Positions 54,975 through 64,000 of a stretch of DNA of 64,000 nucleotides are shown piece by piece (the first letter of the stretch is position 1; every line of letters begins with the position of its first letter). Source of the DNA: Methanothermobacter sp. (lineage in GTDB: Archaea; Methanobacteriota; Methanobacteria; Methanobacteriales; DSM-23052); the NCBI GenBank assembly GCA_030055615.1, contig JASFYN010000002.1, positions 313,245-377,244 on the forward strand, given 5' to 3'. The notes beneath the pieces were generated by a model that made no database searches, was not told the origin of the DNA, and was given only the letters and a program-made list of their open reading frames with translations. Position numbers and translations under genes: made by a program.

Positions 54975-55841
54975 ATGATAACAGAAAAATCCTTAAAAGA
55001 AATTTTTAAGTTTAATATTTGTCGTTGGAGGACATCCATAACCCTCATTGAAAAAAATTGTATAATTACACGTGGTTATTTAATAGAAGATTTAATTGAA
55101 AATCTTTCCTTCCCCGAAGTCATATTTTTACTATTAATGGGCGATTTGCCCTCTAAAAATAAATCCAAAATGCTTAATGCCATACTAGTATCCTTCTGCG
55201 ACCATGGTGTTACACCACCAAGCACACAAGTCGCCCGTCTCACCAGATCAACAGGTTCATCTTTAAACGCCTCTCTAGCCGCCGGTTTATTAGCCTTCGG
55301 CGAAAACCATGCTGGCGCTATAGAAAAAGCCATGAAATTATTCCAAGAAACCATAAGTATTTGTAAATCCCAAAAAGATATACCAGTATTAGCAGAGAAA
55401 ATCGTGGAAGAACACCTACAAATGGGAAAGAAAATACCTGGTTATGGTCACAGATACCACCAAAAAGACCCCAGAGCAACAAAAATACTAAAAATAGCAA
55501 AAGAACTAAAATGCACAGGACCACACACACAATTAGCAAAAGAAATAGAAAAAATACTATACAACTCCAAAAAAATACACCTAAATATCGACGGAGCTAA
55601 CGCAGCAATATTATCAGACATAGGATTCCACTGGAGCACAGGAACCGGAATATTCATGATAGGAAGATTACCAGGATTAATAGCCCACATAAACGAAGAA
55701 TCACAAGAAGAACCATTCAGAAAAACCTTAAAACTCGAAGAAATACAATATCACGGAAAAAAACCAAATAAAAAAATGCAAAATTCAAAAACTCCATTTA
55801 ATGCACTTTCTGTTATATCAACCCAACAATCTCTGAAATAA
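54975..55841 (+). CDS. Citrate synthase/citryl-CoA lyase family protein
   Basis: 288 residues, shorter than a normal citrate synthase (about 370-430) and close to a citryl-CoA lyase-type domain. Catalytic elements: FGENHAGAIEKA (first His), PGYGHRYHQKDPRATKI (second His in the citrate synthase signature), and GTGIFMIGRLPGLIAHINEE. C-terminal ~40 residues are basic and low complexity. It may make citrate for glutamate synthesis or cleave citryl-CoA; sequence does not decide. GGTGAAT before the ATG. Divergent from pst. Confidence 0.75.
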   Translation: MITEKSLKEIFKFNICRWRTSITLIEKNCIITRGYLIEDLIENLSFPEVIFLLLMGDLPSKNKSKMLNAILVSFCDHGVTPPSTQVARLTRSTGSSLNASLAAGLLAFGENHAGAIEKAMKLFQETISICKSQKDIPVLAEKIVEEHLQMGKKIPGYGHRYHQKDPRATKILKIAKELKCTGPHTQLAKEIEKILYNSKKIHLNIDGANAAILSDIGFHWSTGTGIFMIGRLPGLIAHINEESQEEPFRKTLKLEEIQYHGKKPNKKMQNSKTPFNALSVISTQQSLK

Positions 55842-55880: not shown

Positions 55881-56786
55881 CTACAACTTTCTGAACCTCT
55901 CAGGAGTAATTGTACGTGGAATATTCATATAAAACTCACCCGCAGTATCCACAATCTCCACAGAAATATCCCCTATTCTCTCAAAGGTCTTAACTACCCT
56001 TGAAAGCGAAATATAGTATGTTGAACGCTCTTTCTCATCAAAAGACGTTTCAGCCATTTGAGTAGCAATACAATTAAGCGCTTTTCTCTGTATCCTATGC
56101 ATCTTCTTCTCAAGTTTCATAACATCATCTTTAAGTTCCAATCTTTCATTAAGGAAAGCTTTCATAGCCTTTTTAACCATGCTAATAGCAGTTTCATACA
56201 TCCAACGAAGATAATCCATAATCTCAGGATCCACAGGATACGCTTCCTTAACCGTGAAATTAGCTATTATACCTGAATGATCACCTATACGTTCAAGATC
56301 ATAGGCTATTTCAGTGAATACCACAGCCCTCCCAAACTCAGAATATGGATTCATAGCAATTGCAGTATCAACTGAAGACCTGATCTTTTCATGCATATGA
56401 TTAGTAACATAATCCATCCTAAGAGCTTCATCTGCAAGCTCTTTATCATAAGTGGCAAAAGCTTTAAATGACTTTTCAAGCTGCTTACACACATGCCTCG
56501 CCATATCCTTCAAAAGCTCCTTGATGAAAAAACTCCCAGCATACTCCCTCGAAGTCACTTCCTCACCAAAAACATCCGCAAATTCCTCAAATTTCTGAAG
56601 ATCAACCATATAAGCCCTCTTAACAACACCCTTCTTTATAAGCGGCCTAAGTAACTTAGTAACATAACGCCGCGTAATTCCCAACTTTTCAGCGATCTCA
56701 TCCTGCGTAGAAGGATTTTCATATAATATCACATCAATTATAGCCTTAAGAGTGGCGTTCCTCCGGGACATTTCCATCGCATCCAT
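55881..56786 (-). CDS. HTH-PhoU domain regulator
   Basis: A 301-residue protein: N-terminal winged helix (NATLKAIIDVILYENPSTQDEIAEKLGITRRYVTKLLRPLIKKGVVKRAYMVDL, about residues 10-65), then a PhoU two-bundle domain (TEIAYDLERIGDHSGIIANF and SRVVKTFERIGDISVEIVDTAGEF metal motifs). The DNA-binding plus PhoU layout is typical of archaeal phosphate regulators. Its own promoter is not obvious, since the upstream membrane gene overlaps it, so the two are probably co-transcribed. Confidence 0.88.
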   Translation of the reverse strand: MDAMEMSRRNATLKAIIDVILYENPSTQDEIAEKLGITRRYVTKLLRPLIKKGVVKRAYMVDLQKFEEFADVFGEEVTSREYAGSFFIKELLKDMARHVCKQLEKSFKAFATYDKELADEALRMDYVTNHMHEKIRSSVDTAIAMNPYSEFGRAVVFTEIAYDLERIGDHSGIIANFTVKEAYPVDPEIMDYLRWMYETAISMVKKAMKAFLNERLELKDDVMKLEKKMHRIQRKALNCIATQMAETSFDEKERSTYYISLSRVVKTFERIGDISVEIVDTAGEFYMNIPRTITPERFRKL

Positions 56787-57376
56787 TACAATTGCTTATT
56801 TCCAGTTATTATAATTATAGACTCATTAAGTATAATAGCTATCACATAAAGTAGGATAGTAATAATAATAACAGAGATCAAAGCATCAAACTGATAAAAT
56901 AATAGACTATAAAATTTCACAATAGAAGAATTCACATCCACAAATCCCCTTAAAAGGAGCAATAAACCTGCGAATACAAGCAAGTAACCATGAAATTTCT
57001 TTATCTCATCTGGCTTCAAGAAAGGGTATAACCCCATTATAAGAAGTCCAAGACCCATTGACTTGAAAAGATTCCAATGGGTTACACCTTCTAAAAGATA
57101 AATTATACTCTCAGATCTCCAATAAAAATTGGCCAAGAAATTTATAACTTCTATTATGAGTATAATCATAAGCGGGATTGTAAAAACTATCTTATCCTCC
57201 ACTATCTGCGTTTTAACATCCTCTAGGGGCTCTCTAAGGTAATGAGATAAGAGTTGATAGAGCATTGACCCTAAAACAGCGCCTAATGCAGTTCCACCCA
57301 CTCCAAGCTTTTGGGTAGTGAACGCTACTATACCCGATATTACACCTGCCATTATTATATCAAACGCCTTAGACAA
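56786..57376 (-). CDS. Membrane protein of unknown function, coupled to HTH-PhoU
   Basis: About 196 residues with an N-terminal Gly-rich span (IIMAGVISGIVAFTTQKLGVGGTALGAVLGSMLYQLLSHYL) and four further hydrophobic spans. The cytoplasmic-looking loop REPLEDVKTQIVEDK lies between the first and second spans. TTG 57376 follows AGGTGAT and is preferred to the GTG inside that site. Stop overlaps the HTH-PhoU start by one base. Not recognised; a sensor or anchor role for the regulator is a guess. Confidence 0.6.
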   Translation of the reverse strand: MSKAFDIIMAGVISGIVAFTTQKLGVGGTALGAVLGSMLYQLLSHYLREPLEDVKTQIVEDKIVFTIPLMIILIIEVINFLANFYWRSESIIYLLEGVTHWNLFKSMGLGLLIMGLYPFLKPDEIKKFHGYLLVFAGLLLLLRGFVDVNSSIVKFYSLLFYQFDALISVIIITILLYVIAIILNESIIIITGNKQL

Positions 57377-57443
57377 TTCCATCACCTAAAAAAACATTAC
57401 TTCTCATAAAATCATATCTATGAAAGAATCAAATCACCTACAA

Positions 57444-57812: not shown

Positions 57813-57989
57813 TTGAGGCTATTAGATAAATGTGGGTGTTGCGGCGCTTGTGTAAATGTATGCCCATATGAAGTCTTAGAAATGGAAAAGATTGTCATGA
57901 TAAATGGAGAATGTAGGGAATGCGGTACCTGCAGTATAGTATGTCCAGTGAACGCTATACAAATAAAGGGTGCAAATCATGAAATATGA
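57813..57989 (+). CDS. Small 2x[4Fe-4S] ferredoxin
   Basis: 58 residues: MRLLDKCGCCGACVNVCPYEVLEME then GECRECGTCSIVCPVNAIQIKG. Two complete CX2CX2CX3CP motifs. TTG start after GGGTGGTT. Its 3' end overlaps the geranylgeranyl reductase start by 11 bases, so it is the likely electron donor to that reductase. Upstream gap contains a direct repeat TTAAGTTAA (57652-57660, 57664-57672) and a TATA-like ATTATAAA. Confidence 0.9.
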   Translation: MRLLDKCGCCGACVNVCPYEVLEMEKIVMINGECRECGTCSIVCPVNAIQIKGANHEI

Positions 57990-59136
57990 CCTCATAGTAG
58001 TAGGAGGCAGAGTATCCGGATCTATATCCTCGTTTTACGCCTCGAAGAAGGGTCTCAAGGTCCTTATGATAGAAAAAAACCCTGAAATAGGCACACCAGT
58101 ACAATGTGCCGGGGGTGTGAGTGACACCTTCTTCAAATCCATGAAAATAAACCCATCACCAAAATTCACTTGCACTAGGATTAAAGGTGCATGCATTCAT
58201 GCACCTTCTGGTGCAAGTTTCCTAACCAGGGACCCTATGATAACAGGTTATATTGTTGAAAGAAAAATATTTGACAAACACCTTGCCATTTTAGCAGCTG
58301 AACAAGGAACCGATATAATGGTTAATACAACAGCAAAAGATCTGATAATCAAAGATGGTAAAATTAATGGTGTGATAGTTAAAAAAAATGGTCAAAGATT
58401 TGATATCAGTTCAGAGATCGTTATAGCTGCGGATGGGATACAATCAAAAATCGCCAGAAAAGCAGGCCTAGATACAAGGTTTAAAGTAGATGAAATCTGT
58501 TCATGCGCCCAGTCAGAGATGGTGGGCGTTAATGTTAAAAATGAAATAATGGAATTCTATCTCGGAAATAAAATAGCACCCGGCGGTTACTTCTGGATAT
58601 TCCCAAAAGGCGAAAAAAGGGCGAACATTGGCGTTGGAATACGTAGAAAAGAATGGAACATGAAAAGTGCACAATATTATCTTAAAAAATTCACATCAAA
58701 ATTAAATGCGACCGAAATAGAATTCAATATAGGAGCCGTACCTATTGGAGGGCCTGTTAAAAGAACCTATACTGATGGTCTGCTCGTAGTAGGTGACGCT
58801 GCAGGACAAGTAGACCCATTAACCGGTGGGGGCATACACATAGCCGCAGAATGCGCGAAAATAGCCGCTGAAACAGCTTCAGATGCCATAGAAGAAGGTA
58901 GAACCGATGCAGGCTTTTTAAAAGTGTATGAGAAAAGGTGGTATAAAAAAGTTGGAGTTAATATTATGAAATCCCTTAAGTATCGGAAAATACTTAATAA
59001 ACTAACTGACGAAGATCTAAATAACTTGATAGAATCATTAAAAGGAAAAAAATTAAATTTAGATTCCAAGGTTTCAATTTTCAGACTGGTGAAAGATTAC
59101 CCTAATATCCTCAAAATCCTCAAAGAAATACTATAG
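57979..59136 (+). CDS. Geranylgeranyl reductase family flavoprotein
   Basis: A ~385-residue FAD enzyme that saturates the isoprenoid chains of archaeal lipids (digeranylgeranylglycerophospholipid reductase type) or other polyprenyls. FAD elements: YDLIVVGGRVSGSISSFYASKKGLKVLMIEKN (a GGRVSGS variant of the usual GGGPAGS loop), PVQCAGGVS, and VVGDAAGQVDPLTGGGIHIAAECAKIAAE. Partner ferredoxin overlaps it at the 5' end. ATG 57979 with GGGTGC upstream. Confidence 0.88.
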   Translation: MKYDLIVVGGRVSGSISSFYASKKGLKVLMIEKNPEIGTPVQCAGGVSDTFFKSMKINPSPKFTCTRIKGACIHAPSGASFLTRDPMITGYIVERKIFDKHLAILAAEQGTDIMVNTTAKDLIIKDGKINGVIVKKNGQRFDISSEIVIAADGIQSKIARKAGLDTRFKVDEICSCAQSEMVGVNVKNEIMEFYLGNKIAPGGYFWIFPKGEKRANIGVGIRRKEWNMKSAQYYLKKFTSKLNATEIEFNIGAVPIGGPVKRTYTDGLLVVGDAAGQVDPLTGGGIHIAAECAKIAAETASDAIEEGRTDAGFLKVYEKRWYKKVGVNIMKSLKYRKILNKLTDEDLNNLIESLKGKKLNLDSKVSIFRLVKDYPNILKILKEIL

Positions 59137-59147
59137 TGGTGATAAAG

Positions 59148-61631
59148 TTGCCAAGAAAGAAGTCTATTATATTAGTATGTATTCTAGCCTTTATCATAAG
59201 ACTCATACCAAGTAGGAATTTTGCATTCCCTGGTAACGATGCATACATCCACCATGACATTGTAATGAGACTAGCCACAAAAGGCATAGGCATAATTTCA
59301 AAAAACCCCACTTCACTACTAGGACTTAAACCATACGCTTATCCACCACTTTATCATATGTTAGGACTCCTCATGTATAAGATATTTAACAGCCAACTTG
59401 TATTCTTTCTTTTACCACCGGTTCTTGCAATATTAACTATACTCGTATTTTATAAGATCGCATGGGAAATCTTCCAAAATGAGAGGGATTCAATTTTCTC
59501 AGCCTTTTTATTTTCAATGGTACCATCATTTGTGGCCAGGACATCGGTATTCATACCAGAATCCTTAGGAATCCTATTATTCACAATAATACTCTACATC
59601 CTCGTAAAATATGTTAAGAGCATGCCAGAATACTCTGATATTGATAGTTTCAGTCTAGGAGGATTCTTCAAGATATTCAAAGGCAATCTTAAATATATTA
59701 TAATAGCTCTTCTGATATTTTCAATATACTTATTCACCCATAGGGGATGGGTATTCCTCACCATAACTGTCCTAATATTAATTTTAACATTCCTGATACC
59801 CTCCTTTAAAAAAAGGCCAATAGAAGTTTCTATCTTATTCTTCTTCGCAGTCGCCGGTATTCTAGAATTCACATTACTCGCCACCCGTTTACAAACACAA
59901 CCAGTTACAATACTCGGATTCCCAAAATGGATGGGTCTAATCCAGCTCATATTCGGATTATATGGTGCACTATTTTTCATAAAATCGAAGAATCCACTCT
60001 ACAAGTTTATATTTTTATGGTTCACTATATTTGCGATAATGGGAACATATTCCTTCAGATTCCGGGACCCTTATGCTGCGATACCATTATCCTTAATGGC
60101 CGGTTACGGGCTCTCACAAGCCATTATAAGATTGAATAAGCTCAGAATACCAGATTATAGGATACTAAAGAAAAATCTCACACCATATATAAGATTATTT
60201 GTTATTTCACTTCTTTTGATCATCCCAATCGCACAAGGGGGTGTGATAGCTTATCTAAATGTTATAAGTCCCACACCAGAGCAGATAGAGGCCTTTGAAT
60301 GGATAGAGAAAAACACGCCACCCAATTCTGTGTTTTTGGCGACAATGGAAGATGCCTACCTCCTTATAGGTAACACGCACAGAAGGGACGTTCTATTATG
60401 GAAGACGATCTACCAGGGTATGATGGGAAACCCCCCCACATTAAAAGAGAAAGAGATGAGCGAAATAGAAGTAAAGACAATATTTACCACTTCACAGATC
60501 AATGAAGCATACTATTTCCTCGAAAAAAATAACATAACATACATTTACATTAGAAAACCCATGCATCAGCAAGGTTTGGGATTATATCTCCCCACAGACA
60601 CCCACTTCAAAACTCTTATTGTCACGGGAGATGCTGCAGTATATCAATACATTCCAAAACCCCCCATAGAAGGGAATAAATCCAAAATAAACTTTACTGG
60701 AGACCCAAAATATGAAAAAATAACTGATTTCATAGAAAAGTTTTGGAACGGATATTCTTATTCAGAAATCGGTGGATACACTCCAATGGAATATGATCCC
60801 GCTAGAGACTTAGAATTCGGAAGCACATTTAAAGGCTGCTACGACTCCAACGCCATGATAGCAGTTTTATATGACAAACTAGCTGCTAAAACAGGAAACA
60901 CACAATTTAAAGAAAGATCTGATTATCTAATCACATGGTTAGAATATAAACAGATGGAAAATGGGTCATTCCCTGGTGGAATGCCACCAGCAGAATACAC
61001 CATAACAACGGCCCAGACAATTTATCCCCTAAAAGACCTAAAAACAAATGAAACTGAAAAAATAACAAATAAAGGATTACAATTTATTGAAAACCAGATA
61101 AAAAATGGGGAGATCAGAATAGCAGCCAACAAAGAGTCATCACAACTTATAGGATCAGATTACCTGAAGCTTAAAACAGAATCCCAAGTAGGTGGAATGA
61201 ACCCAAACAAAGAAATCATATATAATGTAATTGAAAAACAAAGAAGAGACGGATCTTGGACCTCCATAGCATATGAAAACATCGAAATACTTAAAGGATT
61301 AACCCTATACTACCTCGCAACAAATGATACAAAGGCCCTAAAATCAATCCAAGAAGGCTCAAAATGGCTTAAAGCTAACCAAGAAGACAATGGCCAATTC
61401 AAAGGTGATGGAGATCCAGAAATATATTCCATAGGACATTACGCCGATGCACTCCTAGTATATTACGTGGCAGGGGACAAAGGAGCCATGGAAAAAACTC
61501 TCAATTACACCTTAAAAAAGAACATTAAAAATGACCCAACACCACTAAAATCCTACCTAACACTATTCTGGGACCTTAAAATAATATACAACGAGGATAA
61601 AGCCCTAGAATTATCATCAAAGATACTATAA
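59148..61631 (+). CDS. STT3-like membrane protein fused to a C-terminal alpha/alpha-barrel-like domain
   Basis: A ~827-residue protein. The N-terminal ~380 residues have about 11-12 spans and a GT-C-type first-loop motif (FPGNDAYIHHDIVMR, near residue 30) like oligosaccharyltransferase AglB/STT3. At residues ~384-410 the sequence WIEKNTPPNSVFLATMEDAYLLIG aligns in position with the STT3 soluble-domain start, but the WWDYG catalytic motif is replaced by TMEDA. From ~560 onward, repeated helical units with N/DG-S/Q-F/W turns (MENGSFPGG, RRDGSWTS, EDNGQFKGDGD) resemble a prenyltransferase/squalene-cyclase toroid. TTG 59148 follows GGTGAT. Read from the same operon as the lipid reductase. Function unknown. 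Confidence 0.6.
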   Translation: MPRKKSIILVCILAFIIRLIPSRNFAFPGNDAYIHHDIVMRLATKGIGIISKNPTSLLGLKPYAYPPLYHMLGLLMYKIFNSQLVFFLLPPVLAILTILVFYKIAWEIFQNERDSIFSAFLFSMVPSFVARTSVFIPESLGILLFTIILYILVKYVKSMPEYSDIDSFSLGGFFKIFKGNLKYIIIALLIFSIYLFTHRGWVFLTITVLILILTFLIPSFKKRPIEVSILFFFAVAGILEFTLLATRLQTQPVTILGFPKWMGLIQLIFGLYGALFFIKSKNPLYKFIFLWFTIFAIMGTYSFRFRDPYAAIPLSLMAGYGLSQAIIRLNKLRIPDYRILKKNLTPYIRLFVISLLLIIPIAQGGVIAYLNVISPTPEQIEAFEWIEKNTPPNSVFLATMEDAYLLIGNTHRRDVLLWKTIYQGMMGNPPTLKEKEMSEIEVKTIFTTSQINEAYYFLEKNNITYIYIRKPMHQQGLGLYLPTDTHFKTLIVTGDAAVYQYIPKPPIEGNKSKINFTGDPKYEKITDFIEKFWNGYSYSEIGGYTPMEYDPARDLEFGSTFKGCYDSNAMIAVLYDKLAAKTGNTQFKERSDYLITWLEYKQMENGSFPGGMPPAEYTITTAQTIYPLKDLKTNETEKITNKGLQFIENQIKNGEIRIAANKESSQLIGSDYLKLKTESQVGGMNPNKEIIYNVIEKQRRDGSWTSIAYENIEILKGLTLYYLATNDTKALKSIQEGSKWLKANQEDNGQFKGDGDPEIYSIGHYADALLVYYVAGDKGAMEKTLNYTLKKNIKNDPTPLKSYLTLFWDLKIIYNEDKALELSSKIL

Positions 61632-62035: not shown

Positions 62036-62536
62036 TTGAATGAAATCATAGCAATCCCAATCGCCGCAATCTTAGCATGGCTAAACTTCGTTATAATAGA
62101 CATATGGATGGGCCTACCCGAAGCCCCAGGTGTCAGAGGCGCGAGGGCAATCGGCAAATCCATAGAGAAAAGAGGAGGAGATCTAGGCGGAGGCTACTTT
62201 AAGGGGAATATCGTATGCTCTCCAGACGCCTCAGCCGGCACTCTACTAGCATCCTGTGGCTACTATGGATTCGGGGGCCCTGAGGGTGGTCTGATCGCCG
62301 CATTATTCGTTTACTTCGGGAATAGAATGTGCGCAGATCCCGGATACGCCGGGACAACAGGAGCCCTAACCATAACTTCTATAATATGGATCGCCTCCCA
62401 TTTTGGTATCACAGCAAATTACTTTATAGTAGGTATAGTCATCGCCATATTAACCATCCAAGGCTTATATCATCCACTATCATCCAAACTAATCGGTAAA
62501 ATAGCCAGAAAAATGAATAGAAAGGTCATCAAATAG
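62036..62536 (+). CDS. ehaB: Energy-converting hydrogenase subunit, probable EhaB
   Basis: A 166-residue membrane protein: about four spans and a Gly-rich central part ([47 protein letters not shown]). First gene of a six-gene run of small membrane proteins with overlapping starts. Sizes and order (about 166-84-85-93-162-...) fit ehaB-ehaC-ehaD-ehaE-ehaF-ehaG of the ferredoxin-reducing [NiFe]-hydrogenase Eha. TTG start with GGTGGA five bases before. An ehaA gene is not upstream. The parallel Ehb operon is the alternative reading. Confidence 0.6.
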
Positions 62537-62790
62537 TGGTAGAAATGATAGAAGAAACAATCATCTCATGTATAATAATATATATGGTTTTAAGACTCTT
62601 CATAACCCAGAATAGGTTAGAAAGGATGCCATACCTCAATGTCATAAATTTTGGGGTTGCGGCGATTATAACACTCAAAAATCCATCACCACTAGGTGCA
62701 ATAACATCAATGGTATATTTCATACTCGCAACTGTAGGCGCCAATGCAATAGCATTCACCATAAGCAAAGTAAAGGAGATAGAAGGATGA
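62536..62790 (+). CDS. ehaC: Energy-converting hydrogenase subunit, probable EhaC
   Basis: 84 residues, three spans (EETIISCIIIYMVLRLFITQNRLERMPYLNVINFGVAAIITL). GTG start shares its first base with the previous stop; AGGTCATC lies five bases before it. Typical small membrane arm subunit. Confidence 0.6.
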   Translation: MVEMIEETIISCIIIYMVLRLFITQNRLERMPYLNVINFGVAAIITLKNPSPLGAITSMVYFILATVGANAIAFTISKVKEIEG

Positions 62791-63044
62791 ACATTGAATT
62801 CATATATGCTGCGGCCATCCTCATGATAGTCGGGGCCCTAGGAGGCGTGCTTCAAACAAGGCCCATAGACAAGTTCCTCATGTTAGCAGTGCTAGGTGAT
62901 GGGCTAATTAGTATCGTGGCAACCTTCGGCTACCTTGACGTGGCCATGGCATCCTCATTCATGACCTTCGTAGGAATAATCATAATGATGATAGGATTAG
63001 TTAGAGTACTTGAAATCAGAAAAATGCGAGGCGAAATAGGATGA
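62787..63044 (+). CDS. ehaD: Energy-converting hydrogenase subunit, probable EhaD
   Basis: 85 residues, three spans: EFIYAAAILMIVGALGGVLQTRPIDKFLMLAVLGDGLISIVATFGYLDVAMA. ATGA overlap with ehaC; GGAGATAGAAGG before ATG. Confidence 0.6.
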   Translation: MNIEFIYAAAILMIVGALGGVLQTRPIDKFLMLAVLGDGLISIVATFGYLDVAMASSFMTFVGIIIMMIGLVRVLEIRKMRGEIG

Positions 63045-63322
63045 TCTCAGCCACTGGGACACTTCCATTAATATCATTCTACCTAGGGTTAACCTTAGTA
63101 TTAATTGGGAGCTTAGGTGTTGTATTCGGGCCTAAAACTTCCAAAGAGCCCATAGTTAGGATAATAAACCTTACAGTCCCTTCTACAGGCGTGGCATTGA
63201 TCTTTTTAAGTTATAATTATACCCTTGCAATGTTAACATTTCTAAGTGTGAATCCAATCCTCTATATCATAATGATAAGGGCTATTATAAGATTGGAAGA
63301 AATGGGAGGCCCCATAAGTTGA
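63041..63322 (+). CDS. ehaE: Energy-converting hydrogenase subunit, probable EhaE
   Basis: 93 residues, three spans: ISFYLGLTLVLIGSLGVVFGPKTSKEPIVRIINLTVPSTGVALIFLSYNYTLAMLTFLSVNPILYIIMIRAIIRLEE. Coupled by ATGA overlap to ehaD. Confidence 0.6.
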   Translation: MISATGTLPLISFYLGLTLVLIGSLGVVFGPKTSKEPIVRIINLTVPSTGVALIFLSYNYTLAMLTFLSVNPILYIIMIRAIIRLEEMGGPIS

Positions 63323-63807
63323 TAGGGAGAATCTTAAATCTTTTAGCCGAGCCCAGGGTGGTCCCTAAAATATTCGCATTCGCAATAGCAGTAGTATTAG
63401 TTTTTAGTTTGCCTCTTCCATTTCATCTCAACCCTGAACAAGTCTATCCTAAACCTCCACCCCAACTCCAGATAGAGCTGGCCAAGAAAAATGTTGATGT
63501 GAGTTATAATCTTGCACCCTATAATCGTGGCGGATTGCCAGTAGACCCCCATAATAGGGGTATAGTGAAGTCACAGTACAAAAGCCCATATGAAGGTTGG
63601 ATAACGGCCTATCTAACTCCATTCTCCCAGTGGCTGAGAGATGTTTCATACCACTTAGGCACCACTATCGTAGCGCATCCAGGGGGGATCCTAGATGAAA
63701 TCTTATACTACACAAGGGGATTAGACACGATACTCGAATCATCCATACTATTCACAGCATTTACCATAGCCTCTTGGGTTATATTAAATAGGACAAGAAA
63801 AATATGA
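63319..63807 (+). CDS. ehaF: Energy-converting hydrogenase subunit, probable EhaF
   Basis: 162 residues with an N-terminal span, a periplasm-type loop (YNLAPYNRGGLPVDPHNRGIVKSQYKSPYEGWITAYLTPFSQWL) and a C-terminal span after HPGGILDEILYYTRGLDTILESSILFTAF. TTGA overlap with ehaE; GGAGG upstream. Confidence 0.6.
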   Translation: MIGRILNLLAEPRVVPKIFAFAIAVVLVFSLPLPFHLNPEQVYPKPPPQLQIELAKKNVDVSYNLAPYNRGGLPVDPHNRGIVKSQYKSPYEGWITAYLTPFSQWLRDVSYHLGTTIVAHPGGILDEILYYTRGLDTILESSILFTAFTIASWVILNRTRKI

Positions 63808-63822
63808 TGGGAGAATAATAAA

Positions 63823-64000
63823 ATGGACCCTGTTTCAATAGTCCCTAATGTCGTGCCCCAAATAATCGTAAACTTTTATCCCATAGCAATCACAATCGCC
63901 ATCGTAACAGCCGCCATAGGACTCTCAGGGGTTATAATAGAAAAAAATGACTTCCAAAAGATTCTAATAATCCAGATAGTCACTTATGCCATGCTGATAA
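63823..64000 (+). CDS. ehaG: Energy-converting hydrogenase subunit, probable EhaG (3' cut by window)
   Basis: Only the first 59 residues are visible: MDPVSIVPNVVPQIIVNFYPI then a span and GVIIEKNDFQKILIIQ, a MnhC/NuoK-like feel. GGGAG before the ATG. The rest, and the proton-pumping and hydrogenase catalytic subunits, lie beyond the window. Confidence 0.55.
   Translation, partial: MDPVSIVPNVVPQIIVNFYPIAITIAIVTAAIGLSGVIIEKNDFQKILIIQIVTYAMLI

Follow-up and report, generated by a model that had tools for sequence, protein, structure and literature searches.

The 64,000-nucleotide stretch of Methanothermobacter sp. DNA analysed here (the window) encodes an STT3-like protein of about 830 residues, in which a multi-span GT-C membrane half ends near residue 379, a short alpha/beta unit reaches ~507, and the part from ~522 to the end is all-helical, an alpha/alpha toroid (Table 1). 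STT3-line enzymes are the textbook sequon oligosaccharyltransferases. Judged by its sequence, this protein is a descendant of the STT3/AglB line, and on balance it probably works at the outer face of the membrane as a polyprenyl-phosphate-dependent GT-C glycosyltransferase that serves a pathway for surface glycans or glycolipids, rather than as a sequon oligosaccharyltransferase, a reading we hold with moderate confidence. If true, this is a branch that has kept its donor side, changed its acceptor side and added a toroid, implying that acceptor choice can shift while the GT-C core remains constant.

Table 1. Positions in the window of the STT3-like gene, its parts and motifs, and the two genes preceding it.
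Feature	Position	Strand	Basis
STT3-like GT-C protein with C-terminal alpha/alpha toroid	59148..61631	+	Probable TTG start; conserved GGTGAT box; dN/dS 0.11–0.14
Shine-Dalgarno-like box GGTGAT	59138..59143	+	4 nt upstream of TTG 59148; read in sequence
Multi-span GT-C membrane half (residues 5–379)	59148..60272	+	hhalign to STT3; Foldseek; hydropathy
First DXD-type motif Gly33-Asn34-Asp35, external loop 1	59232..59240	+	D35 invariant in 21 sequences
External loop 2 Rx6E (R135...E142), counterpart of STT3 Rx6D, one acid left	59538..59561	+	Invariant in 21 sequences
RFRDPYAAIP: R308/R310 and Rx6P before last membrane spans, counterpart of PglB R375	60057..60086	+	Invariant in 21 sequences
Short alpha/beta unit (residues 381–507), positional match to start of STT3 C-terminal unit	60276..60656	+	Model secondary structure; dN/dS
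TMEDA in WWDYG column (residues 403–407)	60342..60356	+	Alignments; WWD[MLV]G in Thermococcales orthologs
Alpha/alpha toroid domain (residues 522–831)	60699..61628	+	AlphaFold model; Foldseek
Geranylgeranyl reductase paralog (MTH_1718 type)	57970..59136	+	TIGR02032, E = 2.8e-69; upstream, same gene run
Small 2x[4Fe-4S] ferredoxin	57813..57989	+	Fer4; upstream of reductase in related genomes too

The mechanically called open reading frame runs on the forward strand from a GTG at 59136 to a stop at 61631 and is translated into 831 residues; residue numbers count from this GTG, not from the TTG at 59148. The TTG, already taken as the start in the preliminary description, is the better of the two, since the window's genome and the three others of the genus all retain the GGTGAT box a few nucleotides ahead of it. 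With this start, the gene does not overlap the unit of the preceding reductase, as had been supposed, but follows it after an 11-nt gap, and plainly belongs to the same gene run. Consensus promoter and terminator scans at the gene were uninformative for an archaeon. Conservation across genera under purifying selection (Table 1) means that the architecture is no chance pattern, and the low dN/dS led to the rejection of pseudogene status for the gene in its own genome. By region, dN/dS was 0.04–0.10 for the alpha/beta unit (three comparisons) and 0.15–0.20 for the membrane half, the alpha/beta unit being the lowest of the three regions in two of the three comparisons.

The relationship of the membrane half to STT3 and other GT-C enzymes, part of the preliminary description, was confirmed both by profiles and by structure. 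When 14 family members were aligned by hhalign with eight STT3-type proteins of related methanogens, a probability of 98% (E = 1.1e-13) was obtained over residues 31–418, and the best Foldseek matches of the model are all GT-C enzymes (human and yeast STT3, A. fulgidus AglB, DPY19, PglB and ArnT), the full-length model itself being only moderate (pLDDT 73, pTM 0.59). The NCBIfam archaeal STT3 profile TIGR04154 is matched with E = 3.7e-10 at 38.8 bits, far under the family cut-off of 450 bits, and the Pfam PMT_2 profile PF13231 is matched just over its cut-off by the window protein (27.8 vs 26.1 bits) and at 41.7 bits by a Thermococcus-type member. A sequence search of the PDB returned weak matches only. 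With the DPY19 C-mannosyltransferases and the PMT/ArnT-type families the protein thus shares the fold, the PMT_2 match and a GT-C core without TIXE, although those families have no toroid.

On the donor side, the residues expected of a GT-C enzyme are present. What GT-C families share is an acid in external loop 1, an Arg–acid pair in loop 2 and, ahead of the last spans, an Arg...Pro arrangement (PMC6801728); here these are D35, R135 with E142, and R308/R310 with P317, all invariant in an alignment of 21 sequences, ten from Methanobacteria and 11 from Thermococcales. The first DXD appears as Gly-Asn-Asp, the form found in A. fulgidus AglB, where it holds the metal ligand Asp47 and is accompanied by a second DXD of Asp-His-His (PMC8342417, PMC3703281). 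This second motif, in external loop 2, is reduced in the family to a single acid, with IPE[SN]L instead of DXD or DHH. Its register carries an uncertainty of two residues, owing to a gap of that length at this point in the profile alignments. Such a reduction may have altered the metal site.

It is on the acceptor side that the family departs from STT3. WWDYG and the DK/MI motif form the pocket for the Ser/Thr of the sequon, and TIXE in loop 5 runs along the sequon (PMC8342417, PMC3703281). TMEDA aligns to the STT3 WWDYG column, in agreement with the replacement noted earlier, and WWDYG is absent from all ten aligned Methanobacteria sequences, which follow or closely resemble the consensus x-T-x-[DE]-[DE]-[AS]. 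Each of the 11 aligned Thermococcales sequences has WWD[MLV]G in the same column. Because both these orthologs and AglB carry a WWD-type motif, the toroid-bearing ancestor would have had WWDxG and the Methanobacteria would have lost it, the simplest reading of the alignments being that the loss is confined to this branch. Residue 256 is a second clade-specific site, with Glu (E-V-S/T) in all 11 Thermococcales and Pro, Ala or Thr in the Methanobacteria. External loop 5 carries [PAT]-V-[TSA] or E-V-[ST], and no member has a TIXE- or SVSE-like match there, the handful of matches to these patterns sitting elsewhere. DGGK is absent from the family alignment as inspected by eye, and sequence patterns gave no DK in either clade and one stray MI-like match in one member; variant DK motifs can need structure to be recognised (PMC3703281).

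Taken as a site of acceptor recognition, the changed WWDYG column points to an altered acceptor, not to lost catalysis as the preliminary description had it, the GT-C core residues being invariant. Nor does the site appear to be decaying: the surrounding alpha/beta unit is the most constrained region in two of three comparisons, which argues that the change is under selection. The suggestion that the protein is not a sequon oligosaccharyltransferase is reasonable, given the absence of TIXE and DGGK, the lack of a DK pattern and the replacement of WWDYG. The use of a polyprenyl-type lipid is likewise a reasonable and likely proposal with the GT-C core kept, and the kept core and missing sequon motifs together fit an enzyme that uses a polyprenyl-phosphate-linked sugar and not the sequon. 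For the phospholipid reaction also raised earlier, no evidence was found.

Set against STT3, AglB and PglB (GT66, PF02516; TIGR04154) as a whole, the family shares the membrane fold, the Rx6-acid of loop 2, the Rx6P before the last spans and the start of the C-terminal alpha/beta unit that holds the WWDxG column; it differs in the acceptor motifs and second DXD just described, and in having a toroid in place of the usual peripheral units. The C-terminal part is therefore not the usual STT3 domain, as had been claimed, except that a short STT3-like alpha/beta unit (~381–507) remains before the toroid. An enzyme that still transfers lipid-linked glycans to proteins, at a different sequon or O-linked, is an unlikely alternative, under which the Thermococcales members with WWDxG may N-glycosylate and only the Methanobacteria have changed acceptor. 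It would account for STT3 being the closest profile and for the fixation of WWD[MLV]G and the acidic column 256 throughout the aligned Thermococcales; against it, neither clade has TIXE at external loop 5, DGGK or a DK pattern, the second DXD is reduced, and the window's own genome already carries an ordinary AglB with WWDFG and two further STT3 copies with WSYG. Two adjacent STT3 family genes of that genome (G000:C2:85697-88986; L001, L003) have EWSYG and DWSYG in place of WWDYG, and in the one at L003 the open frame stops shortly past the motif.

The C-terminal toroid proposed in the preliminary description was recovered by structure prediction: modelled alone in AlphaFold, the domain reaches a pLDDT of 83.2 and a pTM of 0.84, and its Foldseek matches are to toroid folds, namely drimenyl diphosphate synthase (SsDMS; E 2e-4, TMq 0.56), a GH76 mannanase, squalene-hopene cyclase, complement C3d and sugar epimerases. 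Single family members reach E = 3.9e-5 with SQHop_cyclase_C. The alpha/alpha toroid fold is common to many functions, and the likeness to squalene cyclases extends to the fold but not to catalysis, as no DXDD acid motif is conserved. None was found in the window protein or in the other Methanobacteria members; some Thermococcales members do have a D-x-D-D string, but it is unconserved and placed right where the domain begins. An Asp pair of the kind that is catalytic in GH76 (DD) and CGEQ were also not found to be conserved in the toroid across members. Activity of the toroid as a class II terpene cyclase or a glycosidase was consequently rejected. Drimenyl diphosphate synthase, squalene-hopene cyclase, GH76, GH127 and the AGE epimerases thus resemble this domain in fold, but here the toroid has no conserved DXDD or Asp pair and lies outside a GT-C membrane domain. 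Its invariant columns include the aromatic residues W537, Y540, Y542, Y579, W601, Y725, Y726, W744, Y764, Y769 and Y818, and it is probably a binding domain for a glycan or a lipid-linked acceptor.

The converse arrangement, in which the GT-C part is a catalytically dead scaffold and the toroid the working part, for example as a membrane-anchored domain binding or processing surface glycans, is very unlikely. WWDxG has indeed been lost in the Methanobacteria, the second DXD partly lost in both clades, and the toroid fold is common to glycosidases and epimerases; yet no core GT-C residue varies across the two phyla, purifying selection acts on the membrane half, and it is the toroid that lacks conserved catalytic acid pairs.

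For the glycosyltransferase reading favoured here, we infer the donor type, the reaction, an acceptor-binding toroid and the role of the reductase as follows. The membrane half would bind a polyprenyl- (dolichyl-) phosphate-linked sugar outside the membrane through Asp35, Arg135/Glu142 and Arg308/310, and transfer of the sugar would follow the inverting mechanism usual for GT-C enzymes. An acceptor other than the Asn-X-Ser/Thr sequon is expected, since TIXE and DGGK are missing, sequence patterns gave no DK and one stray MI-like match, and WWDxG is gone from the Methanobacteria; the outer toroid probably holds this acceptor, a surface glycan or a glycolipid being the likeliest candidate. Methanobacteria probably devote a geranylgeranyl reductase to saturating the lipid that serves as carrier or acceptor in the pathway, and in the Thermococcales the enzyme would work beside an O-antigen-polymerase-like partner. 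By analogy, the proposed reaction type resembles that of Haloferax AglS, which, on the outside of the cell, adds mannose carried by dolichol phosphate to a glycan bound to protein (PMC3871713), AglS differing in that it belongs to a known N-glycan pathway.

Of the phylum's 152 genomes, 15 (the window's own among them) carry a full-length relative (46–90% identity); these comprise several Methanobacteriales genera and one genome of another order (G150), which we take to be Methanothermus fervidus; a single close relative was found in one protein scan of genome contigs. In another archaeal phylum, 40 of 115 genomes have a full-length ortholog, 34–39% identical to the window protein over the whole length, and all 40 fall in one family, presumably Thermococcus and its relatives (Thermococcales). 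A joint profile applied with strict cut-offs and without a positive control found none in three other archaeal phyla, one of them represented by a sample; a tblastn search of plasmids gave no match, and relatives were not found in the viral contigs searched. No paper on an STT3-toroid fusion was found in literature coverage from which subscription journals were mostly absent.

Close relatives of the window's genome show that the gene is dispensable, being missing or broken in four of them. In G006 and G018 it has been cleanly lost from between the reductase and a HEAT-repeat gene, and in G014 a remnant of about its last 73 codons is left. The copy of G016, presumably Methanothermobacter thermautotrophicus Delta-H, is split into two frames (L064 8266-10649) by a deletion of ~42 codons with a frame change; the deletion lies exactly between the membrane and alpha/beta part and the toroid, and both halves are still open frames.

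In the Thermococcales, the gene is accompanied by a PF01901 (O-antigen-polymerase-like) gene; wherever the two share a contig (36 cases) it is divergent at a distance of 64–109 bp, and it occurs in 37 of 40 genomes with the STT3-like gene vs two of 75 without it (115 genomes). No reductase neighbour, flippase or other polymer gene was found linked in the Thermococcales loci read. With just one copy and one conserved partner gene next to it in many Thermococcus-type genomes, the function is open to testing in genetically tractable Thermococcus strains. In two such genomes a second GT-C gene lies directly behind the STT3-like gene (L110 11077-12498, L111 6853-8274), the L110 copy matching PMT_2 with E = 1e-12. 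PF01901 proteins are reported to be Wzy-like neighbours of PMT-family transferases in archaea, and the arCOG00563/arCOG00566 transferases, linked there to arCOG03206 (PF01901), likewise place a GT-C enzyme beside a Wzy-like gene; compared by description, they differ in that no toroid was found in the descriptions consulted (PMC5898192).

This pairing raises the alternative of a polysaccharide ligase or late-step transferase, in which the PF01901 protein polymerises lipid-linked repeats and the STT3-like protein joins the polymer, or the sugar that caps it, to a lipid of the membrane or a protein at the surface. We regard this as quite unlikely. Besides the constant divergent pairing and the reported link of Wzy-like proteins to PMT-family transferases (PMC5898192), it draws on one Methanobacteria genome, G038, in which a DUF4330-like gene and a PF01901 gene (L139 7564-9697) take the place of the STT3-like gene, with the reductase paralog on one side and the HEAT-repeat gene on the other. 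PF01901 is, however, present in 145 of the 152 genomes of the phylum of the Methanobacteria and, being nearly universal, gives no signal there; as the STT3-like gene is rare, the pairing is not general, and the loci read link no flippase or other polymer genes.

In the Methanobacteria the recurring gene order is phosphoesterase, ferredoxin, reductase, STT3-like gene and HEAT-repeat gene, and the ferredoxin is likely the electron donor of the adjoining reductase. The linked reductase is a distinct paralog, 43% identical to the second copy of its own genome (G000:C4:47370-48527), and by gene order presumably corresponds to MTH_1718. In a review of archaeal reductases, MTH_1718 is the reductase that carries the PxxYxWxFP motif (PMC10821996). 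Called at E<1e-80, the paralog occurs in 17 of 152 genomes, in 13 of 16 with the STT3-like gene vs four of 136 without it. These genome counts are phylogenetically clustered, so that p-values overstate independence; at genus level (n = 20) four genera have both, three the gene only, one the reductase only and 12 neither (p = 0.03), a weak to modest link. The association with a lipid saturase pointed out earlier is thus real in the Methanobacteria but does not define the family: no reductase of this type adjoins the STT3-like gene in Methanothermus or in one further genome, and in the Thermococcales the neighbour is the O-antigen-polymerase-like gene, which places the reductase link outside the family core.

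That the reductase saturates the lipid carrier of the STT3-like enzyme may be so, and is offered as a lead, not a result; it could give a role to an archaeal geranylgeranyl-reductase paralog whose substrate is an open question (PMC10821996). There is a minor though appreciable chance that the reductase instead serves ordinary membrane lipids and that its adjacency is inherited gene order, which is compatible with the glycosyltransferase reading and runs against the lipid link alone. This would explain why the reductase persists where the STT3-like gene is lost (G006, G018 and G014) and why the Thermococcales and Methanothermus have no reductase neighbour of this type; it sits less well with the linked reductase being a rare second paralog whose presence tracks the STT3-like gene. 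A broader scenario, speculative and of low probability, is that an enzyme of protein N-glycosylation, in an STT3 branch common to the Thermococcales and Methanobacteria, gained the toroid and thereby became a transferase for surface glycans or glycolipids, in two stages, the Thermococcales keeping WWDxG and the Methanobacteria losing it and gaining a lipid-saturating reductase, with the Wzy-like PF01901 protein completing a polymerase/ligase-type pair.

The surroundings of the gene differ among genera. Outside the window's genus, the recurring order adjoins what looks to us like a CODH/ACS cluster, whereas only the window's genus has a run of Eha-type hydrogenase genes (DUF2106/DUF2107; 62036-64000, forward strand) downstream, indicating a rearrangement breakpoint just after the STT3-like gene. 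On the upstream side, a gene on the reverse strand (56786-57385) encodes a 199-aa membrane protein with no significant Pfam or NCBIfam match, and nearly every related locus examined retains it next to the gene of a PhoU-type regulator. Further upstream, a stand-alone citryl-CoA-lyase/citrate-synthase-like gene (54975-55841, forward strand; NF004866, E = 4e-116) lies between the PstS and PhoU genes, and holds the same position in other genera.
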